The notes under the pieces were generated by a model. The model ran no database searches. It worked only from the letters and a program-made list of their open reading frames with translations, and was not told the DNA's origin. Below, in pieces: positions 12,546 through 50,800 of a stretch of DNA of 64,000 nucleotides; the stretch's first letter is position 1; each line of letters opens with the position of its first letter. Both the position numbers and the translations under genes were made by a program. The stretch comes from Tissierellia bacterium (GTDB lineage: Bacteria; Bacillota; Clostridia; Tissierellales; Peptoniphilaceae), in assembly GCA_030537855.1 (NCBI GenBank), contig JAUNVD010000004.1:1-64000 (forward strand). The letters are read 5' to 3'.

Positions 12546-12830
12546 TTGGACAGAAAAAAGGATTTTGCAGTACTTGAAAGGAATTCAGGTTTATTAAAAG
12601 CCCTTGGTCATCCCATTCGTCTTTGTATTACAAGGGGACTATGGGAAGAAGGGGAAAAGAAAGTAGGAGATATGCAGGATTGTCTGGATTTACCACAGTC
12701 AACGGTGTCTCAACATTTAAATACTTTAAAGACAGCTGGAATTATTGATGGGAAACGACAAGGAACCGAAATTTATTATAGTTTAAAGAATGAATCTGTA
12801 GGGAAATTGTTGAAAGTTTTATTTGAGTAA
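12546..12830 (+). CDS. ArsR/SmtB-family transcriptional regulator
   Basis: This 94-residue winged-helix repressor has the core LKALGHPIRLCIT and LPQSTVSQHLNTLKTAGII, then the wing GKRQGTEIYYSL. It has two cysteines, Cys27 and Cys46; it lacks the ELCVCDL metal motif of ArsR. Since the next gene handles persulfide sulfur, a thiol switch like SqrR/BigR is possible, but the Cys positions do not clearly match those proteins. The start is TTG at 12546 after TAGGTAGGTG; the nearby ATG is out of frame. It lies 11 bases before the reductase gene. Confidence 0.88.
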   Translation: MDRKKDFAVLERNSGLLKALGHPIRLCITRGLWEEGEKKVGDMQDCLDLPQSTVSQHLNTLKTAGIIDGKRQGTEIYYSLKNESVGKLLKVLFE

Positions 12831-12841
12831 AGGAGTGAAGT

Positions 12842-15304
12842 ATGAAAAAAACAATTGTAATTGTAGGTGGGGTTGCTGGTGGAGCCAGTGCAGCAGCAAG
12901 ATTAAGACGTTTGTCTGAAGATACAGAAATCATCTTATTAGAAAAAGGGGAATATATATCTTTTGCCAATTGTGGTCTTCCTTATTATATAGGTGGTAGT
13001 ATTGCAGAAAGGGATGCTCTACTTGTTCAAACTGTAGAAGGAATGAGCCAAAGATTTAATATAGATATTCGTAATTTTAACGAAGCTATCAGCATTAATA
13101 AAGAAGAGAAAACCATAAAGGTTAGGGATATTCAAAAACATGAAGAATATGACCTTTCCTATGATTATTTATTATTGTCTCCAGGGGCTGCTCCTATTCA
13201 ACCTCCTATTCCTGGGCTAGAAGAGAGCTCTGATATTTTTAGACTTAGAAATATTCCAGATACAGATAAGATAAAAAATTTTGTAGATGTGAGAAAACCT
13301 GAAAAAGCTGTGGTTATTGGTGGTGGCTTTATCGGGATTGAAATGGTGGAAAACTTAGTGGACCGAGGGATTGCTGTAACTTTAATTGAAGCAGCAGATC
13401 AAGTGATGGCTCCCTTTGATCCGGAAATGGCAGCTTATTTACACAACCATTTACGGGAAAAAGGTGTGGAACTTATTCTTGGAGACGGTGTTGCCAGATT
13501 TGAAGAAAATGGGAAGGTTGTGGCAACTAATTCTGGGAAACGTGTAAATACTGATATGATTATTCTTTCAATTGGAGTACGTCCTGATGCAGCTATTGCT
13601 AAGGATGCAGGCCTTGATATGAATGAAAGAGGTTTTATTAAGGTTGACAAGGAAATGAGAACTTCAGATCCCTCTATTTTTGCAGTTGGGGATGCGATTG
13701 AAAGTTTTGATTATATATATAAAGAACCTATGACTCTTGCTTTAGCAAGTCCTGCAAATCGACAAGCAAGGATTGCTGCTAATGTAATGATGGGAATTGA
13801 AGATGAGTTTAAAGGGTTTATGGGTACTTCTGTTGCTAAGATCTTTGATTATACCGCTGCTTCTACAGGTTGGAATGAAAAAAAATTAAAGGCTGCTGGT
13901 AAAAAATATCATACAGTATTATTACATCCTATGAATCATGCAGGATATTATCCTGGAGCTCAACCGATTCATTTAAAAGTCCTATTTGAAATTCCATCTG
14001 GTAAGGTTCTAGGTGGTCAAGCCTTAGGAATCGGTGAAGGTGTGGAAAAACGTATCGATGTTTTAGCTACTGCCATTACTGCAGGGATGACTATGGATGA
14101 TTTAACAGACTTAGAACTTGCTTATGCACCTCCTTATTCTTCTGCAAAAGATCCTGTAAATATGGCAGGATATATGGGACAAAATGTACAAGATGGAAGA
14201 TCCCCTGATTTAGATATTTTTGAGTTAGATGAGAAATTAAAAGATAATGGATTACTCATTGATGTTAGAAATGAAGAAGAAATATTAATGGGGGAATTCC
14301 CTGAATATTTAAATATTCCACTAGATCAACTAAGGGATTCTCTTGATAAAATTCCGAAAGACAAGGATCTATACGTCACCTGTCAAGTTGGATTACGTGG
14401 GTACTTGGCTCAACAAGTCTTAAAGGAAAATGGCATTGACTCTGTAAATGTTAAAGGTGGATATACTTCTTATCGTGAGTTGAAAGAACAAGAAAATCCA
14501 ACTCCACCAACACCTCCTACAGCTAAGAATGCTCCTATTTTCTGTACGGATAATCCAGATGTTTTAAAGGAAAAGCCCTCAAAAGGACCTGATCGAAGTA
14601 TTGATGCTAGAGGTTTACAATGTCCAGGTCCTATTGCCCAAGTTTATAAAGCTCTAAATGAGATGAAGGATGGAGAGCTACTTGAAGTTAAAGCTACAGA
14701 TACAGGATTTAAAAGGGATATTGGAGCATGGTGTGGAAAAACTCATAATCGTCTTATTAGTTTAACAGAAGGAGATGGTTATACCACTGCTTATATTGCT
14801 AAAGGTGAAGGGGAAAGTTCTGCTTTAGAGCAAATGAAAGAGGGTGCCACCATGGTGGTATTCTCAGGTGATTTTGACAAAACGATGGCTGCTTTAATTA
14901 TTGCAACAGGAGCTGCAGCTATGGGTAAAAAAGTGACTATGTTCTTTACTTTCTGGGGACTAAATATTCTACGTAAAGAAGGTGTTAAAGTAGAAAAAGA
15001 AGGTATGGAAAAAATGTTCTCAAAAATGATGCCAGAAGGGGTTAGTAACTTGAAGCTTTCTAAGATGAATATGATGGGCATGGGAACTAATATGATGAAA
15101 AAAGTTATGGAAGAAAAGAATGTGGATTCTCCAGAGGAATTACTCTACCAAGCTATGGATATGGGTGTAAATCTTGTTGCTTGTGCTATGAGTATGGATA
15201 TTATGGGTATTAAAGAAGAAGAATTAATTGACGGTGTTGATATTGCTGGAGTTGCCACTTATTTAGCAAAAACCGAAGAAGCAGGTTTAAATCTCTTTAT
15301 ATAA
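12842..15304 (+). CDS. CoA-disulfide reductase / rhodanese / TusA / DsrE four-domain fusion
   Basis: The product has 820 residues. Residues 1-450 form an FAD/NAD(P)H disulfide reductase of the CoADR type, with VGGVAGGASAAAR and the single redox Cys44 in SFANCGLPYYIGG. About 455-555 is a rhodanese domain (Cys514 in VTCQVGLRGY), about 580-655 a TusA domain (Cys594 in GLQCPGPI), and about 655-820 a DsrE-like domain with Cys781 in VACAMSMDIMG. Such fusions reduce CoA-, glutathione- or poly-sulfides and hand sulfane sulfur between domains. The promoter and ArsR gene upstream suggest induction by reactive sulfur. All four active cysteines are present. A terminator follows. Confidence 0.92.
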   Translation: MKKTIVIVGGVAGGASAAARLRRLSEDTEIILLEKGEYISFANCGLPYYIGGSIAERDALLVQTVEGMSQRFNIDIRNFNEAISINKEEKTIKVRDIQKHEEYDLSYDYLLLSPGAAPIQPPIPGLEESSDIFRLRNIPDTDKIKNFVDVRKPEKAVVIGGGFIGIEMVENLVDRGIAVTLIEAADQVMAPFDPEMAAYLHNHLREKGVELILGDGVARFEENGKVVATNSGKRVNTDMIILSIGVRPDAAIAKDAGLDMNERGFIKVDKEMRTSDPSIFAVGDAIESFDYIYKEPMTLALASPANRQARIAANVMMGIEDEFKGFMGTSVAKIFDYTAASTGWNEKKLKAAGKKYHTVLLHPMNHAGYYPGAQPIHLKVLFEIPSGKVLGGQALGIGEGVEKRIDVLATAITAGMTMDDLTDLELAYAPPYSSAKDPVNMAGYMGQNVQDGRSPDLDIFELDEKLKDNGLLIDVRNEEEILMGEFPEYLNIPLDQLRDSLDKIPKDKDLYVTCQVGLRGYLAQQVLKENGIDSVNVKGGYTSYRELKEQENPTPPTPPTAKNAPIFCTDNPDVLKEKPSKGPDRSIDARGLQCPGPIAQVYKALNEMKDGELLEVKATDTGFKRDIGAWCGKTHNRLISLTEGDGYTTAYIAKGEGESSALEQMKEGATMVVFSGDFDKTMAALIIATGAAAMGKKVTMFFTFWGLNILRKEGVKVEKEGMEKMFSKMMPEGVSNLKLSKMNMMGMGTNMMKKVMEEKNVDSPEELLYQAMDMGVNLVACAMSMDIMGIKEEELIDGVDIAGVATYLAKTEEAGLNLFI

Positions 15305-15350: not shown

Positions 15351-15437
15351 TTTGGAATTTTTGAAAAAAATGATAAGTATTTTAGATAAATGGAATATAA
15401 TAGTAATGTGACTATAATCTGGATAGAAAGGATTACT

Positions 15438-16109
15438 ATGATAAAATCTTTAATTTTTGATGGGTTTACTCTAGAGGATGAACAAAAATTTTTAGAAAAA
15501 GGGAATTCATTTACCAAAGAATTTGGAGATGGGGAGGTAATCTTTCATATAGGAGATACCCCAACCCACTTATATATTCTTTTAGATGGGATCGTTCATG
15601 TTGAAAATTTACAACCTTCAGGGCGAAAGGTTTTAGTGAATCGTTTTGAAAATCCTGGAACGGTTTTTGGGGAGGTATATTTGTATTTAAAGGATCAACC
15701 CTTTGATTATCAATGTGTGGCTTCCCGTTATGCGAAGGTTTTATTGATACCTAAAGAAATTTTGTTAGATACGAAAGATCAAGAAGAATTTCAGGAAAAA
15801 ATGAAAAATAATATGTTATCGATTCTTTCTCATAAAGCTTATTATTTGAATCGTCGGTTTTTAGTATTTGCAGAAGGTTCTATTCGGGAAAAGATACTGA
15901 AGGATTTAAAGCAAAGACTGGAGAGGGAAGAAGTATTTACTTTTTATGGTACTCGAGAGGAATGGGCCTCTTTATTAGGAATTCCCCGTCCAAGTTTATC
16001 TAGGGAGTTAGTAAAATTACAGGAAGAGGGAATTTTACAAATCAAAAGAGGAAAAGTGATTGTGAAAAGAGAGGATTTGGACCGTGGATTGGATGAATTG
16101 GAAGCATAG
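15438..16109 (+). CDS. Crp/Fnr-family transcriptional regulator
   Basis: The product has 223 residues. The N-terminal cyclic-nucleotide-type beta-roll (about 20-110, with FGDGEVIFHIGDTPTHLYIL and GTVFGEVYLY) is followed by a dimer helix and a winged helix (about 150-220, EEWASLLGIPRPSLSRELVKL). No N-terminal Cys cluster is seen, so it is not an Fe-S Fnr; the ligand is unknown. The ATG at 15438 has AAAGGA upstream; an in-frame ATG at 15390 lacks a site. It lies next to the persulfide-reductase operon but behind a terminator, so it is a separate unit that may still control it. Confidence 0.88.
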   Translation: MIKSLIFDGFTLEDEQKFLEKGNSFTKEFGDGEVIFHIGDTPTHLYILLDGIVHVENLQPSGRKVLVNRFENPGTVFGEVYLYLKDQPFDYQCVASRYAKVLLIPKEILLDTKDQEEFQEKMKNNMLSILSHKAYYLNRRFLVFAEGSIREKILKDLKQRLEREEVFTFYGTREEWASLLGIPRPSLSRELVKLQEEGILQIKRGKVIVKREDLDRGLDELEA

Positions 16110-16187: not shown

Positions 16188-18371
16188 ATGAAACAAAGAA
16201 AATTCAGTTTTTTGCTGGCTATGATTTTATTATTGAGTATGATTCCTGTTTTTTCCGTGGAAGCAGCAGCTCCAAACCTTGTTTATCAAGAGCCAATTGG
16301 AGCAGGGGCAACACGTTACAAATATGAATGGCAATTAAAAAAAGGGAAGGTACTTATAAATGTCATTAAATGTGATTTAAATAATCCAAACTTAGAAATT
16401 GGCTTAGTAACTGGTGGAGGGAAGTATACACAAAAGGCTACAGTGAGTCAAATGGCCAATCGAACAGGCGCTGTAGGTTTGGTCAATGGTGATTTTTTTA
16501 ATATGAAGGCTCAAGGAGCACCTCTTGGAGCTTCTGTTTCTGAGGGACGATTACTTAGTGCACCGATGAATTCTATTGGTTATTATACTTTAGGAATCGA
16601 ACAATCTGGTCGTGCCGTAATTGATATGGTAACTTTTGGAGGTCATGTTCACGCAGCGAATGGAAAGAAATATCCTATTCAGGGATTAAATAAAGCGGAG
16701 TATTGGGATAATATTACAGGAGCACATAGTCATACCCATACGATCAATTTATACAATGACCATTGGGCTAGTAAGTCTCGTGGTAAAGCTGGGAAAAATG
16801 CAGTGGAAGTTCTAGTAAATGCTAATGGAAAAGTTGAAGAAATTTCTAAAGGAAGAACCTTGGGATACGCTGTCCCTAAAGGAAAAATCATTTTACAGGC
16901 CAATGATAGAGGTAAGGATTTTATTCGCCAAAATATAAAAGTTGGAGATACTATTAAACTTGATTATAAATTATATCCTGAAAAAAATTGGAAGATGCTT
17001 ATTGGAGGTCATGGTCTTTTAGTGGATAAGGGTGTAAAGATTCCCTATGCCTTAGCACCTCAAAGTATTGCAGGTAATCGTGGAAGAACTGCAGCAGGAA
17101 TTTCTCAAGATGGTAAAACATTATGGATTGCAGCAGCAGAAAAATCCAATCGTTCCAAAGGGTTACAACTTTCAGAACTAAGTGAATTTATGGTATCTTT
17201 AGGATGTTATCGAGCACTTAATTTTGATGGTGGTGGCTCTACAGCTATGGCTGTTGCCTCTACAGGAGAACTTAAACCAGAAATTAAAACAAAGCCGGAA
17301 GCTGGAAGAGAACGATATGTGGTAAATGGTTTAGGGGTTTATAATAAAGCTGAAGAAGGTCCCTTACATGAAATGAAGATTAAAGGACCAAGTACCATGT
17401 TAATTGGTGAAACAGCTTCATTTACTGTCCTTGGTTGGGATGCGAATTATGTTGCTAAAGATATGACGAAAATTCCTGTGAATTATTCTGATGATAAGGA
17501 AGGAATCAATGAATGGAATGGAAATCAAAAAACAACGGTTCATGGTGGAAGTATTAAAGTACTTGCTGAAAGTAATGGAGTAAAAGCTACTAAGGATGTA
17601 AAAATCGAAGGAGCAAAATCTATTAAATCCTTAGAAATTACTGTGGATAAAAGAAATCCTAGTCCTGGAGAAGTTGTAACATTAAAGGCAAAGGCAACTA
17701 CAAAATCAGGACGTAAAGTAGATATTTCCCCAAAGGCAATGAAATATACTTTGGAAGGATTCCAAGGGGAATCTTTAACTGGTACGGGACAGGTTCGAAT
17801 TCACTCTGTTGAGGGAGTTGCCACAGGTAAGATAAAAGGAGATCTTGGTGGGTTTACAACAACTCTTTCTCTTGTTAATCCAAATGCGAAGAATGTTCAT
17901 ATGAGTATTGGTAAAGAGAATTATTCTGTGAATGGTGAACAGAGAAAAATGGATACAGTACCTATTATTATCAAAGACCGAACTATGGTACCTTTACGTT
18001 TCTTAGTGGAAGCTTTTGGTGGGGAAGTAACATGGAATCAGGAAACAAGAACTGCTATCGTCGAATATCGTGGTATAAGAATTGAATTACCAGTAGGTAG
18101 TGATACCATCCATATTAATGGAATAGATCAAAAAATTGACAGTCCTGCTACCATTAAAAATGATAGAACTTTAGTACCCATTCGTTTTGTTAGTGAAGGA
18201 CTTGGAATGATTGTAGAATATGGGGAAAAAGACAAGGTAGTGGATATTTATGAATTACCTTTGGAAAAAACTTCTGAGGCAAAAAAAGCACCTGTGGAAG
18301 TTAAAGTTGAACCGGAAAATGTAAATATCCAAGAATCATCTCCTGAAGAAAATCAAAGTTCACAATCTTAA
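16188..18371 (+). CDS. Secreted phosphodiester glycosidase (NAGPA domain) with copper-amine-oxidase-N-like repeats
   Basis: The product has 727 residues with a signal peptide (cleavage near VEAAAP, 25-27). The NAGPA-type domain (about 50-390) shows LVNGDFFN (about 96-103) and NFDGGGSTAM (about 345-354), the conserved catalytic motifs of phosphodiester glycosidases. The middle (about 395-580) looks like two Ig-like domains. The C-terminus (about 585-705) has a two-part copper amine oxidase N-like unit: KDRTMVPLRFLVEAFGG and KNDRTLVPIRFVSEGLG. It probably trims sugar-phosphodiesters in wall polymers or exopolysaccharide. The start follows GGAGGGAAGATGA. A terminator follows. Confidence 0.9.
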   Translation: MKQRKFSFLLAMILLLSMIPVFSVEAAAPNLVYQEPIGAGATRYKYEWQLKKGKVLINVIKCDLNNPNLEIGLVTGGGKYTQKATVSQMANRTGAVGLVNGDFFNMKAQGAPLGASVSEGRLLSAPMNSIGYYTLGIEQSGRAVIDMVTFGGHVHAANGKKYPIQGLNKAEYWDNITGAHSHTHTINLYNDHWASKSRGKAGKNAVEVLVNANGKVEEISKGRTLGYAVPKGKIILQANDRGKDFIRQNIKVGDTIKLDYKLYPEKNWKMLIGGHGLLVDKGVKIPYALAPQSIAGNRGRTAAGISQDGKTLWIAAAEKSNRSKGLQLSELSEFMVSLGCYRALNFDGGGSTAMAVASTGELKPEIKTKPEAGRERYVVNGLGVYNKAEEGPLHEMKIKGPSTMLIGETASFTVLGWDANYVAKDMTKIPVNYSDDKEGINEWNGNQKTTVHGGSIKVLAESNGVKATKDVKIEGAKSIKSLEITVDKRNPSPGEVVTLKAKATTKSGRKVDISPKAMKYTLEGFQGESLTGTGQVRIHSVEGVATGKIKGDLGGFTTTLSLVNPNAKNVHMSIGKENYSVNGEQRKMDTVPIIIKDRTMVPLRFLVEAFGGEVTWNQETRTAIVEYRGIRIELPVGSDTIHINGIDQKIDSPATIKNDRTLVPIRFVSEGLGMIVEYGEKDKVVDIYELPLEKTSEAKKAPVEVKVEPENVNIQESSPEENQSSQS

Positions 18372-18380
18372 AATATAAGG

Positions 18381-18411
18381 AAACGGCATTCTATTGAGTG
18401 CCGTTTTTTTA
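18381..18411 (+). terminator. Terminator after the phosphodiester glycosidase gene
   Basis: AAACGGCA (18381-18388) pairs with TGCCGTTT (18399-18406) and is followed by T residues. Confidence 0.9.
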
Positions 18412-18580
18412 CTTTGATTTGGTAAATGCATAAAAGAATGATTTACTTGAAAAAACATTTGATTTTTGTTATCCTTTAGATAATAAATATTTTTCTTATA
18501 TAAATAAAATAAACTACTTTTTAATAGTTTTAGATATTAAATAAAAGAGTTAAATGTTTCAATAGAAATTGGAGGGAATG

Positions 18581-19462
18581 ATGGGAGATTTTTTCAATGA
18601 GTACCATCCTGTTGTAAATGCTGTTTTTTTTATTTCTATATTATTTATGGCAATGTTTACAAATTATCCAGTACTACAAATTATAAGTATACTTGGGGCT
18701 TTAATATATTTAATCATATTAAAGGGATTTTCTGGAGCAAAAGGTATTTTATTTGGTTCATTGATTATGTTTTTTATGGTAACCTTATTAAATCCAATTT
18801 TTAATCATAAGGGAGTTACGATTCTTACATATTTTAAAAATGGGAATCCTCTAACATTAGAGTCGATGGTTTACGGTATGAGTGCTGGATTTATGTTTAT
18901 TTCTGTGATCCTTTGGTTTTCGTGTCACAATGTAATTATGACTTCTGATCGTTTAATGTATTTATTTGGACGGTTAGCACCTGCTCTTTCCCTGATATTT
19001 TCTATGTCCTTAAGATTTGTACCTCTTTATAAAAAAAGAATTGATGAAATTACTTTAGCAAGAAGTGGAATTGGTATGAATCCTAAAAATGGAAATCTTT
19101 GGAATCGTATGAAGTCTGCATTAGCTATTTTTTCTATTTTTGTAACATGGGCTTTGGAGTCTTCCATTGAAACTGCGGATTCTATGAGGTCTAGAGGGTA
19201 TGGCTTGAAGGGAAGAAAGGCCTTTTCTCTTTTCCACTTTCGAAAACGAGATGGGATTCTTTTAACTTTCATTGTATTTATAGATTTTCTTTTGCTGTAT
19301 CTCATGAAAGACCGTGTATTTAAAATCGTCTTTTACCCAGCCATTAAAATTGCAAAGGTTCGTCTTGAAACAATTTTGGGAATACTGGCATTTGCTTTCT
19401 TAGCTTTTTTACCTACAGGAATATCTATTTGGGAGGAATGGCGATGGGAATATTACAATTAG
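18581..19462 (+). CDS. ECF transporter T component (EcfT/CbiQ-like)
   Basis: This 293-residue integral membrane protein has about five or six helices. The cytosolic coupling helix carries SMRSRGYGLKGR (about 206-217), a variant of the two short Ala-Arg-Gly motifs that grip the ATPases. It joins a substrate-binding S component to the ATPase pair. The ATG at 18581 lies five bases after GGAGGGA; the adjacent ATG at 18578 is possible. It overlaps the ATPase gene by about 19 bases. No S component is adjacent, and no B12-riboswitch motif is seen in the 170 bases upstream. Confidence 0.88.
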   Translation: MGDFFNEYHPVVNAVFFISILFMAMFTNYPVLQIISILGALIYLIILKGFSGAKGILFGSLIMFFMVTLLNPIFNHKGVTILTYFKNGNPLTLESMVYGMSAGFMFISVILWFSCHNVIMTSDRLMYLFGRLAPALSLIFSMSLRFVPLYKKRIDEITLARSGIGMNPKNGNLWNRMKSALAIFSIFVTWALESSIETADSMRSRGYGLKGRKAFSLFHFRKRDGILLTFIVFIDFLLLYLMKDRVFKIVFYPAIKIAKVRLETILGILAFAFLAFLPTGISIWEEWRWEYYN

Positions 19463-21072
19463 ATACATTTAGTTTCTGCTATCCAGAAGGAAAGGAGGAT
19501 ACTTTAAAGAATCTTTCCTTTCAAGTGGAAGAAGGAGAATTTGTCCTCTTAACTGGTTTATCTGGTTCAGGAAAAACAACATTATTAAGACAATGTAAAC
19601 CGATTTTAGCTGCTCATGGGACAAGGAAGGGGAAGATTCTTTTTCGAGGTCAACCACTCCAGTCTCTAAAACAAAGAGAATCCGTTACAGATATTGGATT
19701 TGTTCAGCAAGATACAGAAAATCAAGTGGTAACCGATAAGGTCTGGCATGAATTAGCTTTTGGATTAGAGTCTTTAGGAATGGATACAGATACTATTCGC
19801 CTACGGGTTGGTGAAATTGCAGGATTCTTTGGTATGGAACATTGGTTTTATAAGGATATTAAAGAACTTTCCGGGGGACAGTTACAAATGGTGAATCTTG
19901 CTTCTATTTTGGCCATGCAACCAAAATTATTATTGTTAGATGAGCCAACGAGTCAACTGGATCCCATCGCTGCAGGAGAGTTTTTTCAAGCTGTAAAACG
20001 TGTTAGTGATGAATTAGGTATTACTGTGATTTTAAGTGAACATCGTTTGGGAGAAGTGTTTTCAATTGCTGATAGAATACTACATTTGGAAAATGGAGAA
20101 TTAACTTATGATGGAACTCCTAGAAAGTTTGGTGAGAGTTTAGCAGTTGATAAAAAAGATATCCTATATTCTATTCCTGTCCCAGCTCAAATATATGCAG
20201 GTGCTGATTTAGGGGGCGCATGTCCCTTAACAGTGGGAGAAGGTGCAAGATGGCTACCGGAATTAGATACTAAAATCGTTTTTGATGATAAATGGATAGA
20301 GTCATCACCAAGGATTTTACTTGATCATATATTTTTCAAATATGAGAAAAATGGACCTATGATATTAAAGGATGTAAATCTTAAAATTTACGAGGGAAAG
20401 GTTAATTGTATCCTAGGAGGAAATGGAGCTGGGAAAAGTACAACCTTGAAAGTTTTATCCGGTATGGCGGAACCTCTTCGTGGGAAGGTTTTTGATGGGA
20501 AAAAAAGAAGAAAGCATAAAAAAGAATTAAGAGAGGGCATTGCTGTTGTCCCACAAAATCCAAAATCCCTTTTTGTAAAAAAGACAGTAAAAGAAGAGCT
20601 ATTAGAATTAGGAGATGGGTCTAAAGAAGCCTTGGAAAAAGGGAAAGAATATGCAAAGATATTTGATCTAATGCATATTTTAAATCATCATCCCTATGAT
20701 ATTAGTGGTGGGGAACAACAAAGACTAGCTTTGGCAAAAGTCCTAATGACAGACCCTAAGGTTTTAATGTTAGATGAACCAACTAAGGGAATGGACGGAG
20801 CTTTTAAAAAAATTTTTGCAGGAATCATTGAAGCATTAATTACACAAGGGATAACATTAGTTATTGTAAGTCACGATTTAGAGTTTTGTGGAAATGTAGC
20901 AGATTATTGTTATCTCTTTTTTGCTGGAGAAGTTATTAGTGAAGGTCCAAAGAGAAAGTTTTTTTCTGGGAATCATTTTTATACAACTGAGGCCAATAAA
21001 ATGTGTCGTAAAATAAGCCCAGAAATTATAACGATTGAAGAATCTTTGGAAGCAATTCATAGGTCTTCGTGA
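19444..21072 (+). CDS. ECF transporter ATPase, two ATP-binding domains in one chain
   Basis: The product has 542 residues, two ABC domains fused (EcfA1-EcfA2 style). Domain 1 has Walker A GLSGSGKTT (39-47), signature LSGGQ and Walker B LLLLDEP. Domain 2 (from about 285) has GGNGAGKST, ISGGEQQRLALAKVL and VLMLDEP. It powers vitamin uptake through the T component. The start at 19444 is seven bases after GGGAGG; earlier in-frame TTG/ATG codons overlap that site. It lies in an operon with ecfT and, 37 bases on, the two surface proteins. Confidence 0.92.
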   Translation: MGILQLDTFSFCYPEGKEDTLKNLSFQVEEGEFVLLTGLSGSGKTTLLRQCKPILAAHGTRKGKILFRGQPLQSLKQRESVTDIGFVQQDTENQVVTDKVWHELAFGLESLGMDTDTIRLRVGEIAGFFGMEHWFYKDIKELSGGQLQMVNLASILAMQPKLLLLDEPTSQLDPIAAGEFFQAVKRVSDELGITVILSEHRLGEVFSIADRILHLENGELTYDGTPRKFGESLAVDKKDILYSIPVPAQIYAGADLGGACPLTVGEGARWLPELDTKIVFDDKWIESSPRILLDHIFFKYEKNGPMILKDVNLKIYEGKVNCILGGNGAGKSTTLKVLSGMAEPLRGKVFDGKKRRKHKKELREGIAVVPQNPKSLFVKKTVKEELLELGDGSKEALEKGKEYAKIFDLMHILNHHPYDISGGEQQRLALAKVLMTDPKVLMLDEPTKGMDGAFKKIFAGIIEALITQGITLVIVSHDLEFCGNVADYCYLFFAGEVISEGPKRKFFSGNHFYTTEANKMCRKISPEIITIEESLEAIHRSS

Positions 21073-21109
21073 GGCATGACTACTTTATATATGTTATGAG
21101 GAGGAAAGT

Positions 21110-22669
21110 ATGAAAAGAAAAAGTTTATTATTATTTTTGATTTTTACTTTACTTTTAAGCTTTACTGCACCAGTAATGGCTCAAAGTGAGGTAGATATCA
21201 ACGCTGAGGTAGAAAAGACAGCAAATTTCTTAATGAATAAGGTAGATGCTCCAAAATTCGGGTCTATAGCTGGAGAATGGACGATTTTAAGCTTGGCTAG
21301 ATCAGGGGTGAAATTACCTGAAAATTATATTGAAAATTATCATAAACATATTGATCAAGTTGTTGCTGGTAAAAATGGACAATTATCTAAAAATAAATTT
21401 ACAGAATACTCAAGATTAATAGTAGCATTAACAGCAACAGACAAAGATGTTACAAATGTAGGTGGACATAATTTAATTCCACCTCTAGGTAATTTTAAAG
21501 ATGTGATTAAACAAGGGATTAATGGTCCTATTTGGGCATTAATTGCTTTAGACACAAAAGGATTTGAAATTCCGGATATTGGGAATTCAACAGATCAAAA
21601 TTCTAGAGAAAGAATGGTTGAAGAAATTTTAAACCGTGAAATATCCGGTGGTGGCTGGGCACTAATGGGAGAAAAAGCTGATGTAGATATAACGGCAATG
21701 ACACTTTATTCTTTGGTTCACTATAAAGATAATCCAAAGGTAGCAGCAGCTATTGAGCGTGGTGTAAATAAATTAAGTGAAATGCAATTAGCATCTGGTG
21801 GCTTTACCTCCATGAATGATGAGAATTCTGAAAGTACAGCTCAAACAATAATAGCTCTTTCAACATTAGGGATTGATCCTTTTAAAGACCCAAGATTTAT
21901 AAAAACAGATGAACAAGGTGTGAAGCGTTCCCCTGTAGATGCACTTTTAACATTCCGTAGCAAAGATGGTGGTTTTAAACATGTCTATAGTGAAACAGAA
22001 GCGAATGCAATGGGAACAGACCAAGCTTTAGAAGCCTTAGTAGCTGCAAAAAGATATCTTGAAGGTAAACCAGCTCTATTTGATATGTCAGATGTAGGGG
22101 AAAAACCAAGTTCTCCTACTGGAGTATTTACTGATATAGAAAAATCTTGGGCAAAAGATATTATTTTGAAAACAAAAGGATATGGAATTGCTGGTGATAC
22201 TACTGAATTTAAACCGGAACAAGCCATTAAACGTGGGGAATTTGCATTTGGTTTAGTCCAAGGACTTGGTTTAACCAAAGGAGATAAAATTCTTGAATTT
22301 TCAGATGTAAAATCTGGTAGTCCACATTATGATGCAATTATAATTGCCGCCTCTTTAGGAGTGATCGAAGGTCGTGGAGACGGTATCTTTGATCCAAATG
22401 CAACGATAACAAGAGAAGAAGCTATGGCTATTGTCCAAAGAGCTTTAAAAACAAAGGGAGTTGGACAAGAGTATACAGTGGAAAAAGCGAATGAATTACT
22501 AAAGAAATTCCCAGATGGAGATAAGGTTTCTTCATGGGCAAAAGTTCCGGCAGCTTTTAATATTGATAAAAAGATTATTGAAGGACGCCCAGAAGGAATT
22601 GTACCAAAAGGTAATATTACAAGAGCAGAAGCTGTTAAAGTTATTTTAACGGCTACTGACGTAAAGTAA
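21110..22669 (+). CDS. Secreted alpha/alpha-barrel (terpene-cyclase/transcobalamin alpha-like) protein with SLH anchor
   Basis: The product has 519 residues with a signal peptide (cleavage near VMAQSE, 23-25). Residues about 30-325 form helical repeats of the squalene-cyclase/prenyltransferase-repeat type, with SGGGWALMGEKADVDITAMT and ASGGFTSMNDENSESTAQT, followed by DGGFKHVYSETEANAMGTDQ. This is the fold of the alpha domain of intrinsic factor and transcobalamin. Three SLH repeats close the chain (about 337-390, 400-455 and 460-515; KRGE, TREE, TRAE). The protein is secreted and wall-bound. The ATG at 21110 follows ATGAGGAGGAAAGT. Operon context with ECF genes and a DUF4430 protein points to ligand capture, perhaps a corrinoid (inference). 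Confidence 0.85.
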   Translation: MKRKSLLLFLIFTLLLSFTAPVMAQSEVDINAEVEKTANFLMNKVDAPKFGSIAGEWTILSLARSGVKLPENYIENYHKHIDQVVAGKNGQLSKNKFTEYSRLIVALTATDKDVTNVGGHNLIPPLGNFKDVIKQGINGPIWALIALDTKGFEIPDIGNSTDQNSRERMVEEILNREISGGGWALMGEKADVDITAMTLYSLVHYKDNPKVAAAIERGVNKLSEMQLASGGFTSMNDENSESTAQTIIALSTLGIDPFKDPRFIKTDEQGVKRSPVDALLTFRSKDGGFKHVYSETEANAMGTDQALEALVAAKRYLEGKPALFDMSDVGEKPSSPTGVFTDIEKSWAKDIILKTKGYGIAGDTTEFKPEQAIKRGEFAFGLVQGLGLTKGDKILEFSDVKSGSPHYDAIIIAASLGVIEGRGDGIFDPNATITREEAMAIVQRALKTKGVGQEYTVEKANELLKKFPDGDKVSSWAKVPAAFNIDKKIIEGRPEGIVPKGNITRAEAVKVILTATDVK

Positions 22670-22682
22670 GAAGTGATTTGAT

Positions 22683-23858
22683 ATGAAAAAGCTCACGAAG
22701 AAACAAAAAATTATAGGTCTTGCTATCATAACCATTTTAATTGCTTACTCTCTTTTATATAATGCTGATTTTTTACGAAAAGAACAAGTGGCAACAGAAG
22801 ATCAAGTAAAGGAATTAAAAGAAGAAGAGAATAAAGACCTTCATAGTATTACAAAATATACACCTCCAGAAGAAGAGGAGGAAACTCTAGGTGGTAGCAT
22901 TACTACTTTTTACATCTCTTCAGAAGGGGAAACGGTGGCTCCTGGTGGTAATTTGAATTTTACAGGTTATTTTGAAGGTACCGGAGAATTTGACCGTAGT
23001 ATAAATTGGACGGTACAAGGAGCACATCACCCTGATACAGGAATTGGTAATGACGGCGTTTTAAAAGTCTCTCCTCAAGAAAAGAATACAGAGTTATTTG
23101 TACGAGGTGTTTCCCAATATGATGATTCAAAAGTGGCTGAAAAATCTGTTGCAGTTACTCAGCCTGAAGTATCAAACCCTTCAGCTCCTACAACTACTCC
23201 CACAAAGAAGGCCTCTGTTGGAAAACCAAAAACAAAAGAAGAATTAAAACAAAAGGCACAAGAAGTAAAACAACAGGTTTCAACGGAAGAAGTGGCAAAA
23301 AAAGAAGAAGAGGCAAAAAAACTAAAAGCTCAAGCTATCGCCAAAGATCAAAAGAATGTTGGACAAAAAGATAAATATCTTACAGATCCAACTCCAGAAG
23401 GAAAGCCGAAGCCTGTAGATGATCCAGGTGAAATTAACAAGAACAACCCACAAACTGCATATTTATCTGTAAATTGTTCCACTATCTTAGATCATATGGA
23501 TTTATTTGATATGGATAAAATCGACGTTCTTCCTGTGGATGGGGTAATTTTAGGAAAGACTGAAGTAACTTTTTATCCTGGAGAAACAGTGTATGATGTA
23601 TTAAGTCGAGAAATGCAAAACAGAAAAATTCACATGGAATCCACTTTTACCCCAATTTATAACTCTGCCTATATTCAAGGGATTAATAATCTGTATGAAT
23701 TTGATTGTGGAGAACTTTCCGGTTGGATGTATCGTGTAAATGATTGGTTTCCTAATTATGGAGTTAGTCGTTATGCAGTTCAACCAGGAGATAATATAGA
23801 ATTTTTATATACCTGTGAATTAGGTAAAGATGTGGGAGATAATAGTATGACAAAATAG
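22683..23858 (+). CDS. Membrane-anchored DUF4430 (transcobalamin beta-like) protein
   Basis: The product has 391 residues. An N-terminal membrane helix (about 9-25) is followed by an acidic linker, an Ig-like domain (about 72-165), a Lys/Glu/Ala-rich helical spacer (about 180-225) and a C-terminal DUF4430 domain (about 290-385). The last has YPGETVYDVLSREMQN, then SGWMYRVNDWFPNYGVSRY and QPGDNIEFLYTC. DUF4430 is the beta domain of intrinsic factor/transcobalamin. The gene starts 13 bases after the alpha-like gene. The two proteins could together form a surface ligand-binding pair feeding the ECF transporter (inference). Confidence 0.85.
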   Translation: MKKLTKKQKIIGLAIITILIAYSLLYNADFLRKEQVATEDQVKELKEEENKDLHSITKYTPPEEEEETLGGSITTFYISSEGETVAPGGNLNFTGYFEGTGEFDRSINWTVQGAHHPDTGIGNDGVLKVSPQEKNTELFVRGVSQYDDSKVAEKSVAVTQPEVSNPSAPTTTPTKKASVGKPKTKEELKQKAQEVKQQVSTEEVAKKEEEAKKLKAQAIAKDQKNVGQKDKYLTDPTPEGKPKPVDDPGEINKNNPQTAYLSVNCSTILDHMDLFDMDKIDVLPVDGVILGKTEVTFYPGETVYDVLSREMQNRKIHMESTFTPIYNSAYIQGINNLYEFDCGELSGWMYRVNDWFPNYGVSRYAVQPGDNIEFLYTCELGKDVGDNSMTK

Positions 23859-24672: not shown

Positions 24673-25701
24673 ATGAAACAAAAGAAAATAGCTTTGCTTC
24701 TAACTTTTATTATATTACTTACAACGATTCTAGGAGGTTGTAGTCCTAAGGATCAAAAAGAAAATATAGGAAGCAATACAGTAGATAATGATACAAAGGT
24801 AGAAGATGGGGGAACTGAAAAGAAAGAAGAAAATCCTAGTCGTATCTTTGCTTTAAAGGGGCCTACAGCTATGGGACTTATTAAGCTTTTTAAAGATATA
24901 GACAATGGAGAAGAAAATTATACCTACACCATTGGGAATTCTCCAGAAGAAGCTATTGCAGCTATTGGTGGTGGGAAGGCTGATATTTTGACGATTCCTG
25001 GAAATATGGCAGCTTCTATTTATAATAAAAACAAAAATCTTAAAATTGCTGGAATTAATACATTAGGAGTTCTCTACTTTGCATCTTCTGGGGACGAAAT
25101 ACATTCCTTTGACGAGCTGAAAGGAAAAACAATTCTTCTTTCTGGTAAAGGTGCTACTCCAGAGTTTGCATTAAAAGTCTTGTTAAAAGAATCTAATCTT
25201 TCAGAAGAAGATGTTACTCTTGAATTTAAGTCAGAACATACAGAAGTGGTTCAAGGGTTAGGAGAAAATCCTAGTAGTATCGGTTTGTTACCCCAACCCT
25301 TTTTAACGGTTGCAACGACAAAGAATGATTCTCTACATCCAATTTTTGATTTAAATAATAGTTGGAAAGAGTATTTTGATCATGATATGGTAACAGGTGT
25401 GGTTGTTGTTACCAAGGATTTTGCAGAAAATCATCCGGAAAAGGTAAGAGATTTTTTAGAAAAATATAAAGAATCTGTTTACTTTGTAAATGAAAATATT
25501 GACGAAGCTTCAGAGCTTATAGGCTCTTATGATATTTTCCCTACTCCTGTTGCAAAAAAAGCAATACCTTATTGTAATATTGTTATGATCGATGGGGAAG
25601 AGATGGAAAAAACCTGTGATACTTATTTCAAAGCCTTATTTGAAGTAGAGCCAAAGGCTGTGGGAGGAATGGTTCCCGATGGAGAGATTTATTTCAAATA
25701 A
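24673..25701 (+). CDS. ABC transporter substrate-binding lipoprotein (NMT1/TauA type)
   Basis: The product has 342 residues. A lipoprotein signal ends in the lipobox ILGGC (Cys23); an acidic linker and a type-2 periplasmic-binding fold follow. IGGGKADILTIPGNMAASIYN (inside 97-120) resembles the ligand loop of NMT1/TauA/SsuA proteins. These bind sulfonates, nitrate, thiamine precursors or amino compounds; the substrate cannot be read off. The gene overlaps the permease start by 23 bases. The operon ends in D-serine ammonia-lyase, so a link to an amino acid ligand is possible. Confidence 0.85.
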   Translation: MKQKKIALLLTFIILLTTILGGCSPKDQKENIGSNTVDNDTKVEDGGTEKKEENPSRIFALKGPTAMGLIKLFKDIDNGEENYTYTIGNSPEEAIAAIGGGKADILTIPGNMAASIYNKNKNLKIAGINTLGVLYFASSGDEIHSFDELKGKTILLSGKGATPEFALKVLLKESNLSEEDVTLEFKSEHTEVVQGLGENPSSIGLLPQPFLTVATTKNDSLHPIFDLNNSWKEYFDHDMVTGVVVVTKDFAENHPEKVRDFLEKYKESVYFVNENIDEASELIGSYDIFPTPVAKKAIPYCNIVMIDGEEMEKTCDTYFKALFEVEPKAVGGMVPDGEIYFK

Positions 25702-26431
25702 AAAATTTAAAATTAGTATAGCTATAGGACTTTGGATTCTTCTATGGGAATTACTGGCATATTATATAAATGAGGAGATTCTTTTGGTATCTCCTTTGTC
25801 CGTATTTCAAAGAATCCTTAAAGAATGTAAAAATCCTAATTTTTGGATTATTCTTGGAAACACAGGTCTTCATATTATTATAGGATTTTTTTTAGGAGGA
25901 ATTTTTGGTCTATTTATTGCCATCCTTTCTTTTTATCAATCTTTTTTAAGATTCTTTTTTCGACCTATGGTACTTGCTATTCAAGGCACTCCTGTGGTTA
26001 GTTTTATAATTTTAATCCTTTTGTGGGTTCCTGTTTCTAGATTATCTATTATTATCTCTGCCCTTATTGTTTTTCCTATTTTCTACCATAATACATTATT
26101 GGGAATGGAAAATGTAACAAAGGATTATTTGGATATGGCAAAGGTTTTTTGTTGGACCGAACGAAAAAAGTGGAAGTATCTATATCTACCTTCTTTAAAA
26201 CTATTTTTAGGCTCTGCTATGTGTACTGGAGTTGGTTTAGCATGGAAAGCCGGTCTTGCAGCTGAAGTTATTGGTTTGCCAAAAGGGACTGTGGGAGAGA
26301 AAATATATGAATCTAAAATATTTTTAGATACAGAAGGACTATTTGCTTATACTATTGTAGCAGTTTTACTTTCTTTTCTAATGGAAGGAGGTTTGAAAAA
26401 ACTATGGAAACCATTAAAATCCAATCATTAG
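25679..26431 (+). CDS. ABC transporter permease (TauC/SsuC type)
   Basis: The product has 250 residues with about six membrane segments. A BPD-type cytosolic loop is visible: MENVTKDYLDMAKVF, then LPSLKLFLGSAMCTGVGLAWKAG, matching the EAA loop region. It forms the channel of the importer with the upstream binding lipoprotein. The ATG at 25679 is inside the end of the lipoprotein gene, and the 3' end overlaps the ATPase by 28 bases, which is tight translational coupling. Confidence 0.88.
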   Translation: MERFISNKKFKISIAIGLWILLWELLAYYINEEILLVSPLSVFQRILKECKNPNFWIILGNTGLHIIIGFFLGGIFGLFIAILSFYQSFLRFFFRPMVLAIQGTPVVSFIILILLWVPVSRLSIIISALIVFPIFYHNTLLGMENVTKDYLDMAKVFCWTERKKWKYLYLPSLKLFLGSAMCTGVGLAWKAGLAAEVIGLPKGTVGEKIYESKIFLDTEGLFAYTIVAVLLSFLMEGGLKKLWKPLKSNH

Positions 26432-26988
26432 AAAAATATTATAGAGACAAATCTCTCTTTAAGCCTGTAAATCTTGAAATTTCTCATCATGAACGTTTGG
26501 CAGTCTTAGGACCCTCTGGACGTGGAAAGACAACATTTTTAAAGATCGTAGCAGGATTAGTAAAACCTACCTTTGGTAGAATTGATATACCAAAAGATCA
26601 TACGATTTCCATGGTTTTTCAAGAAAATTTATTGCTAGAAGGATTTCACGGTGTAGATAATATAAAATCTGTTGTAAACTGGAAGGAGGAAAGGATTTTA
26701 TCCTGGCTTCAAAAATTGTCATTAGAAAAAGATGGGTATCAATTTGTTCATAATTATAGTGGAGGAATGAAAAGAAGATTAGCTCTTTTACGAGCCTTAG
26801 CTGTAAAGCCAAGGATTTTGTTACTGGATGAAGCTTTCCGTGAAGTAGATGAAAGGAATAAGAATGCTATGGTGGATTTAGTTCTTTCAGAAATGGAAAA
26901 TAAGATTTTGATTTTTACAACCCATGATAATAATGATTTAAAAATGTTAAAACCTACAAAATGTTTAGAACTTGAGGAGTGTGAATGA
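26404..26988 (+). CDS. ABC transporter ATP-binding protein (short)
   Basis: The product has 194 residues, short for the SsuB/TauB group (about 240-260). It has Walker A GPSGRGKTT (about 36-44), Q-loop VFQENLL, signature YSGGMKRRLALLRAL, Walker B ILLLDEA and H-loop TTHD. In Walker A, Arg replaces the common Ser/Cys before GKT. The C-terminal extra domain is missing, but all catalytic motifs are present. It is the third gene of the importer operon; its stop overlaps the dsdA start. Confidence 0.9.
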   Translation: METIKIQSLEKYYRDKSLFKPVNLEISHHERLAVLGPSGRGKTTFLKIVAGLVKPTFGRIDIPKDHTISMVFQENLLLEGFHGVDNIKSVVNWKEERILSWLQKLSLEKDGYQFVHNYSGGMKRRLALLRALAVKPRILLLDEAFREVDERNKNAMVDLVLSEMENKILIFTTHDNNDLKMLKPTKCLELEECE

Positions 26989-28286
26989 TGAAAGGGCGTA
27001 TCAAAGAATATTTAAAAAATCCTTTGATTCAAAAATTATCAAATTTAGAAGAAGTGTTTTGGGAAAATCCTAAATGTGGAAATGGGGAAAATATGTTTCC
27101 TATTTCTTTGGAAGAAATCGAAGAAGCGGAAGCTCGTCTATTACGTTTTGCCCCTTTGATTGAAAAAGTATTTCCTGAAACGAAAGAAGATAATGGTGTG
27201 ATAGAATCTCCACTTATCGAAATACCAAGTATGAAAAAAGCATTGGAAAACAAGGGGGAAATTCCTGGGAAACTATATTTAAAAATGGATTCTCACCTAC
27301 CTATTGCTGGGTCTATTAAGGCAAGGGGAGGTATTTACGAAGTCTTAAAACATACTGAAGATTTAGCGAAAGAACATGGAATTTTAAAAGAAGGAGACTC
27401 CTATGAAGTCCTTGGAACAAAGGAATCCAGAGATTTTTTTAAAGATAAAATCATCCAAGTAGGTTCTACTGGAAACTTAGGTTTATCCATAGGTATTACA
27501 TCAGCTGCCATAGGTTATCAAGTTATTGTCCATATGTCAGCAGATGCAAAACAATGGAAAAAGGACTTACTTCGAGAAAAAGGAGTGATTGTCAAAGAAT
27601 ATTCTTCAGATTATTCTTTAGCTGTGAAAGAAGGGCGTAGAGAATCTAATGAGAATCCTAATTCCTATTTTATCGATGATGAAAATTCTAAGGACTTATT
27701 TTTAGGTTATGCAGTAGCGGCAAAACGGTTAAAAGCACAATTAAATGATCTTGGGATGGTTCCTACGAAGGAGAAACCTTTGATTTTATATCTTCCTTGT
27801 GGAGTAGGTGGAGCTCCAGGTGGTGTAGCCTATGGATGTAAATTAATCTTTCAGGACGCTGTTAAAATATACTTTGTAGAACCAACCCATGCTCCTTGTA
27901 TGCTTTTAGGAATGGCTACAGAAGAATATGGAAATATAAAAGTAAGTGACATAGGAATTGATGGTAAAACCATAGCAGATGGTTTGGCAGTAGGGCAGTC
28001 CTCTGGATTTGTAGGAGAAATTATGGATCCTATTATTAATGGTATCTTTACAGTGGAAGATCGTCGACTATTGCCAATAATGGCCTTCTTAAAAGATACA
28101 GAGGATATTATTATTGAACCTTCTGCATGTTCCGCTTTTATAGGTCCTTTATATTTTTCTAACTATGGGGATTTACAAGAAGGTTACCATATCCCATGGG
28201 CTACTGGAGGAGCTTTAGTACCCTCTTCGATAGCCAATAAAGAAATTGAAGAAGGTCGAAAACTAAAAGATACTCTTTTTCTTTAA
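26985..28286 (+). CDS. dsdA: D-serine ammonia-lyase (D-serine dehydratase)
   Basis: This PLP enzyme converts D-serine to pyruvate and ammonia. The product has 433 residues (E. coli DsdA 442). PLP-lysine Lys112 lies in GSIKARGGIYE; the Gly-rich cofactor loop is GSTGNLGLSIG; LPCGVGGAPGGVAYG and IEPSACSAF are further family blocks. It is fused to the operon by a 4-base overlap with the ABC ATPase (ATGATG with GAGGAG upstream). The context suggests uptake and catabolism of D-serine or a related compound, or detoxification of D-amino acids from peptidoglycan turnover (inference). Confidence 0.95.
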   Translation: MMKGRIKEYLKNPLIQKLSNLEEVFWENPKCGNGENMFPISLEEIEEAEARLLRFAPLIEKVFPETKEDNGVIESPLIEIPSMKKALENKGEIPGKLYLKMDSHLPIAGSIKARGGIYEVLKHTEDLAKEHGILKEGDSYEVLGTKESRDFFKDKIIQVGSTGNLGLSIGITSAAIGYQVIVHMSADAKQWKKDLLREKGVIVKEYSSDYSLAVKEGRRESNENPNSYFIDDENSKDLFLGYAVAAKRLKAQLNDLGMVPTKEKPLILYLPCGVGGAPGGVAYGCKLIFQDAVKIYFVEPTHAPCMLLGMATEEYGNIKVSDIGIDGKTIADGLAVGQSSGFVGEIMDPIINGIFTVEDRRLLPIMAFLKDTEDIIIEPSACSAFIGPLYFSNYGDLQEGYHIPWATGGALVPSSIANKEIEEGRKLKDTLFL

Positions 28287-47884: not shown

Positions 47885-50800
47885 ATGAAAATTTTAATTA
47901 TAGGTAGTGGTGGAAGAGAGCATGCTCTAGGAATGGCATTGGCAAAAGAAAATAGGAAGCTTTATTTTGCCCCTGGAAATGGTGGGACAGAAGAGATTGG
48001 TACAAATATTAATATATTACCAACAGATATTTCAGGGTTACTAAAGTTTGCAGAACAAGAGGGTATTGATTATACCGTTGTGGGACCTGAAGATCCATTG
48101 GTTCAAGGAATCGTAGATGAATTTGAAAATCGAGGAATGGAAATTTTTGGTCCAAGAAAAGAAGGGGCTTTACTAGAAGGAAGTAAAGAATTTGCCAAAG
48201 AATTTTGTATTCGCCATAAGATTCCAACAGCAAAGTACTTTGTTTCTTCTAATAGGGATGATGGAAGAGATAGGGCTTTAGAATTTTTAAAGGAAGACGG
48301 CATTGTTGTCTTGAAAGCAGATGGACTTTGTGCTGGAAAAGGGGTAACCATTGCGAAATCAGAAGAAGATATAGAAATCTTTCTAAGGGAAATGTTTGAT
48401 GAAAATAAATATGGTAAAAAACGTCTCCTTGTGGAAAAATTTTTACCAGGTTTCGAAGTAAGTTATCTTTGTTTTACCGATGGACATGTAATTCGTCCTT
48501 TAGCTTCTTCTAGAGATCATAAAAAAATATTTGAAGGAGAAAGAGGGCCAAATACTGGAGGAATGGGAACCTATAGCCCTAATGATGGAGCTGACATTTA
48601 CAGAGATGAAGTAGAAGAAAAAATCTTGAATCCATTTTTAAAAGGGTTACAAGAAGATGAGATAGATTTTCGAGGGTTAATCTTTATTGGTTGTATGATT
48701 ACTAAGGAAGGTATCTCTGTCTTAGAATTTAATACAAGATTTGGTGATCCGGAAACCCAATCTGTTCTCCATCGTCTAGATACAGATTTACTTGAAGTGA
48801 TGATGGGAACATCTAGAGGACAATTAAAAAATATAGAAGTGAAAGAAAATAATCATAAAGTTGTTTCTGTGGTGCTCGCTTCCAAAGGATATCCAGGGGA
48901 ATATGAAAAAGATAAGATTATAACAGGATTAGATTCTGTTAAAGATGTTTTTGTATACCATGCAGGAACGATGAAAAAAGGAAATCATATCCTTACAAAT
49001 GGAGGACGTGTTCTTTGTATTACGGCCATTGGAAAAACTTTTTCAGAAGCTTATAAAAAAGCCTATCGTGAAGTGAAAAAGATTTATTTTGAGGGAATGG
49101 TCTATCGACAGGATATTGGTCCTCTTGTACAAAGGGTTTATGTGAAAAAGAAAAAAGAATTTGACCAGGAAGGTCCTTTAATAAAAAAAGAGTTGACTGA
49201 ATCCCTTTCATTCCCTATAGAAGAAGTGGAAATCTATCATCGATATGATATTGAACATCTTCCTAAAGAATTATTAGAAGAAGTTATAACAAAGGTATTG
49301 TCCGAGCCTCCTGTAGATGAAGCTTACAGTGGGAAAGAGGCGTTTCTTTTAGAAAAGAATTTGGACCATCCCATTGTTATTGAGTACTTACCTGGACAGT
49401 TTGACCAAAGGGAACAGGGTATGATCGACACCATTGCTGTTACCACTGGTTTGGAAACTTTAGGTAAAGTGGCAAAGGTCCTTAATATAAAAGGAGATAT
49501 TTCTATAGAAGATCTTATAAAAATCAAAGATTATTTTATCAATCCTGTAGATCAACAAGAAGGTCAATTACTAGGAATTCCCACAACATTAAAAAAATCC
49601 TATAAGAAAAATATGAAAAACCCAATATATCAAGGATTTTGTCAATGGTCAAAAGATGAATTAAAAGACTTTTTAAAAGAATATGGACTTGCCATGTCTT
49701 TCGAAGATATAGAGATGGTTCAATCTTATTATAAAACAATAGGACGTGACCCTAACGAAGTGGAGCTTGCTGTTTTAGATACCTATTGGTCAGATCATTG
49801 TCGCCATACCACCTTTAACACGGAAATCCAAGTAGAGGAATTTTCTGATAAAAGCCTTTTAGATCAAAGAATTAAAAAAGCATATAAAGAGTATGAGAAT
49901 TTACATGATAAAATATCTTCTCATAAAAACCAAAGCTTTATGGATCTTGGAACTATAGTGGCTAAGGAATTAAGGGAAAAGGGAAAACTTGACGATGTAG
50001 AGGTTTCTGACGAAATCAATGCTTGTTCAGTAGAAGTATCTGCAAGGATTCAGAATCCTAAAACAAAGGTTGAAAAGAATATTCCATATTTATTTATGTT
50101 TAAAAATGAAACACATAATCACCCTACAGAAGTGGAACCTTTTGGAGGAGCCTCTACCTGTTTAGGAGGAGCGATTCGAGATCCCCTAAGTGGAAGGTCC
50201 TATGTGTATCAGGCTATGAGGGTCACTGGAGCAGCTAATCCTTTCAAAACAAAAACGATGGAAGGAAAATTACCTCAAAAAAAGATTATACAAGAAGCGA
50301 TGAAAGGTTATAGTTCTTATGGGAATCAAATAGGGTTGGCAACAGGATTAACAGAAGAATTATATCATCCAGGATATGTAGCAAAGAGAATGGAAGTAGG
50401 TGCTGTACTAGGTGCTGCTCCTAAATCACATGTAATTCGAAAAAAGCCTGAAAAAGGGGATGTTATTTTATTAATTGGTGGGCGTACTGGAAGGGACGGT
50501 GTCGGTGGAGCAACAGGTTCTTCTCAAGCCCATAATATGACTTCCATTGTTGAATCCTCTGCTGAAGTTCAAAAGGGAAATGCTCCTATGGAAAGAAAAC
50601 TCCAAAGACTTTTCCGAAAAAAAGAGGTGGCTTCTAAAATAAAGAAATGTAATGATTTTGGAGCAGGAGGAGTTGCTGTAGCCATTGGAGAACTAGCAGA
50701 TTCTTTGATTATTTACTTGGATCGTGTTCCCTTAAAATATATGGGGCTTAGTCCAAAGGAAATTGCTATTTCTGAATCCCAAGAAAGAATGGCAGTAGTG

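Follow-up and report, generated by a model that had tools for sequence, protein, structure and literature searches.

This analysis concerns a cassette of four genes at 18581–23858 in a 64,000-nucleotide stretch of DNA (the window) from a Tissierellia bacterium of the Peptoniphilaceae (contig JAUNVD010000004.1, positions 1–64,000). The cassette quite probably encodes an importer of corrinoids (B12-type compounds) of the energy-coupling factor (ECF) class, with a two-part receptor outside the membrane that resembles intrinsic factor; corrinoid binding is predicted. An initial annotation had proposed that a wall protein and a membrane protein together capture a corrinoid or other ligand for ECF uptake. 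Capture of a corrinoid in this way is the best reading, based on gene synteny, riboswitches in relatives, a CbrT-like S component and fold similarity, from which binding is inferred.

Gene content of the cassette and its recurrence

The features of the cassette are as follows.

18376–18411, + strand: intrinsic terminator of the preceding gene, marking the start of the transcription unit
18581–19462, + strand: ecfT, ECF transmembrane coupling protein (reading frame open from TTG at 18569; GGAGGG ahead of the ATG at 18581; orthologues match CbiQ)
19429–21072, + strand: ecfAA, duplicated ECF ATPase in a single chain, both halves intact
21110–22669, + strand: secreted, wall-anchored toroid protein (signal peptide, alpha/alpha toroid, three S-layer homology (SLH) repeats)
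21245–22099, + strand: alpha/alpha toroid domain, counterpart of the alpha domain of intrinsic factor and transcobalamin (from model, PDB matches and profile)
22127–22648, + strand: three SLH repeats, the cell wall anchor (from Pfam)
22683–23858, + strand: membrane-anchored DUF4430 protein (N-terminal transmembrane helix, Ig-like segment, Lys/Pro-rich linker, DUF4430)
23580–23813, + strand: DUF4430 domain, counterpart of the beta domain of intrinsic factor and transcobalamin (E 3.5e-15; alignment; 5no0 is a match for the corresponding domain of the L006 fusion described below)

All of the genes named in the initial annotation – ecfT, a double ecfA, a secreted toroid protein with SLH repeats and a membrane-anchored DUF4430 gene – are present and intact in this interval. 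Their four reading frames form one tight string on the + strand, with gaps of −34, +37 and +13 nt between genes. EcfT starts at the ATG at 18581 or a few codons further upstream. It has six transmembrane segments and the motifs ARSGIG (at 164) and RSRGYG (at 207). It falls below the Pfam cut-off for CbiQ and is 39–57% identical to syntenic orthologues in the first-round loci; two such orthologues match CbiQ at or just under the cut-off. Both ABC halves of EcfAA are complete, each with Walker A, signature and Walker B motifs, and their best NCBIfam models are ECF_ATPase_1/2, slightly under the cut-offs of those models. Pfam found weak SQHop/Prenyltrans matches and the three SLH repeats in the toroid protein. 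The DUF4430 protein has a single N-terminal transmembrane helix and matches PF14478 (DUF4430), while its sole phmmer match was a capsid Ig-like domain, in the middle segment. Orthologues from the same family share 49–67% identity with the four genes.

An S component of the type associated with these cassettes was found in 84 of 299 genomes of the phylum. Gene neighborhoods were mapped for 38 S loci, from phylum and family searches, and for the first-round loci. The toroid, DUF4430, ecfT, ecfAA and S occur together in most of them, and this conserved toroid-DUF4430-ecfT-ecfAA-S synteny extends across many genera of Bacillota. Because the same arrangement recurs in unrelated genera, chance adjacency of the four genes is excluded. 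In relatives the S component follows ecfAA or is fused to the C-terminus of EcfAA (fused in more than 10 loci).

The receptor parts are packaged in several ways. Many relatives have a large leading protein with both toroid and DUF4430, and in a single protein of 737 aa (L107:7613–9826) an ECF S component is joined to a toroid and three SLH repeats. The fusions of toroid to DUF4430, and the one of S component to toroid and SLH, imply proximity of the parts. In Latilactobacillus curvatus the pair is likewise split: the toroid protein (toroid profile 7.8e-59) has an LPXTG anchor, the DUF4430 protein is separate, and ecfT, ecfAA and S come after them. Two further toroid proteins (L109:7420–8799 and L113:7707–9065) end not in SLH repeats but in a domain like copper-amine-oxidase-N, as judged by similarity to the protein encoded at 16188–18371 in the window; this end is possibly a third kind of wall anchor. 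Since the anchor changes while the toroid and DUF4430 stay, wall location seems to matter.

The gene at 16188–18371, for a NAGPA/copper-amine-oxidase-N surface protein, lies just upstream of the string, as does a gene for a Crp-like regulator (15390–16109). Genes similar to these two are found near the ECF cassette in genome G031 (L038:16742–19901). Relatives within the family (loci L042, L043, L044, L045 and L039) also have clusters of giant SLH proteins of 1000–1700 aa with toroid and DUF4430 domains, beside the ECF cassette or away from it.

Likeness to intrinsic factor and transcobalamin

The C-terminus of transcobalamin is a DUF4430 domain (PMC4350170). In several relatives, a toroid and a DUF4430 domain joined by a short linker together span about 400 residues, the size and domain order of intrinsic factor; in the window, the two domains sit in separate genes rather than in one chain. 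One natural fusion, from Paenibacillus (L006:3112–4299; 396 aa with an 18-residue linker), was modeled with a mean predicted confidence (pLDDT) of 84.7 and a predicted template modeling score (pTM) of 0.75. Transcobalamin, haptocorrin and intrinsic factor made up the whole of its top 15 PDB matches (2.5e-10 to 8.6e-8, over 402–437 alignment columns), with terpene cyclases next, from 7.9e-6. The fusion also matched the transcobalamin beta domain alone (5no0).

The window toroid itself was modeled with a pLDDT of 91.6 and a pTM of 0.91. Its first PDB match by Foldseek was transcobalamin (4.2e-5), tied with terpene cyclases and farnesyltransferase, and for this reason the toroid fold alone is not specific. 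The initial comparison with intrinsic factor is borne out over both domains in the L006 fusion, and is unspecific for the window toroid taken alone. As terpene cyclases match equally, the toroid was also considered as an enzyme, a candidate that the DUF4430 fusions and the riboswitch linkage appear to disfavor. The reading is thus of a receptor that is built like intrinsic factor and probably works like it, rather than of a member of that family.

The DUF4430 profile found nothing in the PDB and the toroid profile found squalene-hopene cyclases and TED domains, so likeness to intrinsic factor is not decidable by sequence alone.

Ligand, S component and alternative explanations

The ligand is indicated by regulation in relatives. 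Of 29 toroid/DUF4430-ECF loci whose upstream sequence is 700 nt or longer, 26 have a cobalamin riboswitch by Rfam scan, in some cases in tandem, in the 700 nt before the cassette; L039, where a 147-aa open reading frame (ORF) intervenes, was counted by hand. The riboswitch-led cassettes include the orthologues from three genomes of the same family, G007, G031 and G057. The chance of a cobalamin riboswitch is about 0.001–0.003 per locus, though some loci are close relatives and hence not independent. Of seven ECF-S loci without toroid and DUF4430, one had such a riboswitch. Six B12-binding domains score above the cut-off in the host genome (G000), and the host therefore probably uses corrinoids.

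A search of G000 with the S domain of relatives gave a single match, on another contig (G000:C83:18991–19737; the C83 S component). This protein shares 55% identity with the S domain that relatives carry fused to EcfAA, and the cobalamin S component CbrT (6fnp, E 9.4e-9) is its sole PDB match. Together, the riboswitches in relatives and this CbrT-like S component point to corrinoids as the ligand. In G007, G031 and G057 the gene order is ecfT-ecfAA-toroid-DUF4430-(other genes)-S; as these relatives keep S in the same order, the separation of S from the window cassette looks like a rearrangement. The same synteny suggests that EcfT-AA of the window would pair with the C83 S component.

In the proposed mechanism, the corrinoid site would be divided, with one half on the SLH-anchored toroid in the wall and the other on the DUF4430 protein at the membrane. 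The corrinoid would sit between the two domains, as it does in intrinsic factor and transcobalamin, and the domains may close round it. The receptor pair would then keep the corrinoid near the membrane and hand it over to the CbrT-like S component for import, driven by ATP hydrolysis through EcfT and the double EcfA.

Directly ahead of the C83 S component are genes for a 724-aa NifH-NifD fusion and a 424-aa NifK-like protein (the three together at L050:6565–10738, equivalent to G000:C83:15564–19737). In G031 and G057, NifH-NifD and NifK-like genes lie between DUF4430 and S, inside the ECF operon (L038:10261–14392; L039/L040), and cobalamin riboswitches (34.6 and 98.4 bits) precede both operons. 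Both cluster cysteines are present in the NifH part and three cysteines in the NifD part, whereas the NifK-like part has only two of the usual three. From these linkages it is plausible, though less likely than not, that the imported corrinoid, or an enzyme carrying it, is processed by a dedicated nitrogenase-like reductase, which would place a nitrogenase-family enzyme in B12 salvage. As a general partner of the cassette, the nitrogenase-like genes were rejected: close homologues were found in only five of the genomes searched (G000, G031, G057, G266 and G575), next to S in three. Those in G266 adjoin DUF3786 and CobW, and those in G575 adjoin a Cys-rich zf-like gene.

Elsewhere in G000 (G000:C46; L049:2129–8191), genes for a BtuF/FecCD-type importer are found with CbiM, CbiQ-like and ATPase genes after a sub-threshold cobalamin riboswitch. 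This locus is possibly a second corrinoid or cobalt route in the same genome.

Several results weigh against a corrinoid importer with an intrinsic-factor-like receptor. No cobalamin riboswitch was found upstream of the window ecfT, even with degenerate forms searched up to E = 1, although such control, frequent among these cassettes, is not a requirement for the CbrT-type family. No S component lies within the window or beside ecfT-ecfAA, an absence that the initial annotation overlooked, and six other EcfT-like proteins in G000, where the gene census rests on targeted searches, are possible users of the C83 S component. The toroid has no match to Pfam Cobalamin_bind (PF01122) at E 1; a PF01122 search of the host genome also gave no match, but as its control was equally silent, that result says nothing either way. 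The toroid profile, as noted above, finds cyclases and TED domains in the PDB rather than intrinsic factor. Superposed on intrinsic factor, the L006 fusion gives a TM-score of about 0.4 and a root-mean-square deviation of 21 Å; for this reason the domain placement in the model differs from the closed, ligand-bound structures and no closed binding cleft is predicted.

The missing riboswitch is also consistent with import of some other trace ligand, such as haem, a cobalt or nickel complex or another tetrapyrrole, in which case the intrinsic-factor-like fold would merely be a shared scaffold. ECF-type transport of haem is known (PMC7299338), tetrapyrrole reductases are among the relatives of the nitrogenase-like genes next to the S component, and B12 uptake may already be covered by the BtuFCD/CbiM locus with its sub-threshold riboswitch. 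This is improbable, given that cobalamin riboswitches precede so many of the related cassettes, including those of the same family, that the only PDB relative of the S component is CbrT, and that haemin did not compete with B12 uptake via ECF-CbrT (PMC5997447).

It is very unlikely that the toroid and DUF4430 proteins bind no ligand and serve as scaffolds of the wall or envelope, sharing the operon by happenstance. Surface scaffolds do typically have SLH, Ig-like and linker segments, and the toroid fold has many uses other than B12 binding, but in the fusions both domains match intrinsic factor and transcobalamin in the same order, the pair is conserved with ECF-S in many genera under cobalamin riboswitches, and it is retained when the wall anchor is swapped between SLH and LPXTG. 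Least likely of all is that the window cassette is a degenerating copy that has lost its S component and riboswitch and no longer works as a transporter. While it does lack both next to it, unlike the cassettes of G007, G031 and G057, its frames and ATPase motifs are all complete, its identity to the orthologues of the same family is 49–67%, and G000 still has the 55%-identical S component.

Neighboring genes and relation to known systems

Other genes in the window encode further proteins of potential interest. At 12842–15304, disulfide reductase, rhodanese, TusA and DsrE-like domains are fused in one 820-aa protein, whose gene adjoins that for an ArsR-like regulator (12546–12830). At 24673–28286, genes for an SsuA/ThiY-like ABC importer (binding protein, permease and ATPase) are followed by one for D-serine ammonia-lyase. 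A 1637-aa ORF within a purine gene cluster (47885–52798) resembles, by eye only, PurD fused to full-length PurL.

In Bacteroides, BtuG/BtuB captures corrinoids at the surface, in the outer-membrane system of Gram-negatives. The proposed receptor is similar in that a surface protein would capture the corrinoid ahead of a membrane transporter, but the folds are unrelated and BtuG/BtuB belongs to the Gram-negative outer membrane. With the vertebrate carriers intrinsic factor, transcobalamin and haptocorrin (2pmv, 2bb6, 4kki) it shares an alpha/alpha toroid followed by a DUF4430-type beta domain. It differs from them in that the domains in the window are separate chains, one in the wall and one in the membrane, in the lack of a PF01122 match in the toroid, and in that import would be by an ECF pump instead of endocytosis.

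ECF transport of cobalamin is known from ECF-CbrT of Lactobacillus delbrueckii (PMC5997447; PDB 6fnp). Both systems have an ECF module and an S component of the same family, with cobalamin/cobinamide as the substrate predicted here. While the ECF module used by CbrT is a general one that also serves other S components, the cassette has a dedicated EcfT, a fused double EcfA and two extracellular receptor proteins. Some Lactobacillus proteins carry the automatic label "additional lipoprotein component of putative cobalamin ECF transporter" (PMC9963975). The same gene set is annotated in L. curvatus. The protein bearing the label is presumably the DUF4430 protein, which stands beside an ECF transporter there as it does here; the label is limited to that protein and omits the wall-anchored toroid partner and the intrinsic-factor-like architecture. 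No description of the toroid partner, or of a split, intrinsic-factor-like receptor in bacteria, was found in the literature searched, from which subscription journals were largely absent. The ECF B12 transporter is of a known kind; the intrinsic-factor-like receptor would be the new part.

If this reading is correct, many Gram-positives, including gut species, would own a bacterial counterpart of intrinsic factor – a wall-to-membrane corrinoid relay for an ECF pump – and the role of the DUF4430 proteins and of the SLH- and LPXTG-anchored toroid proteins would be explained. A receptor layer would be added to ECF transport, where the S component is itself the binding subunit. Through the linked nitrogenase-like genes, a possible new corrinoid chemistry becomes open to testing. 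The receptor would also be relevant to how B12 is competed for in the gut, and would raise the question of whether the B12 carriers of animals share an origin with the bacterial system.

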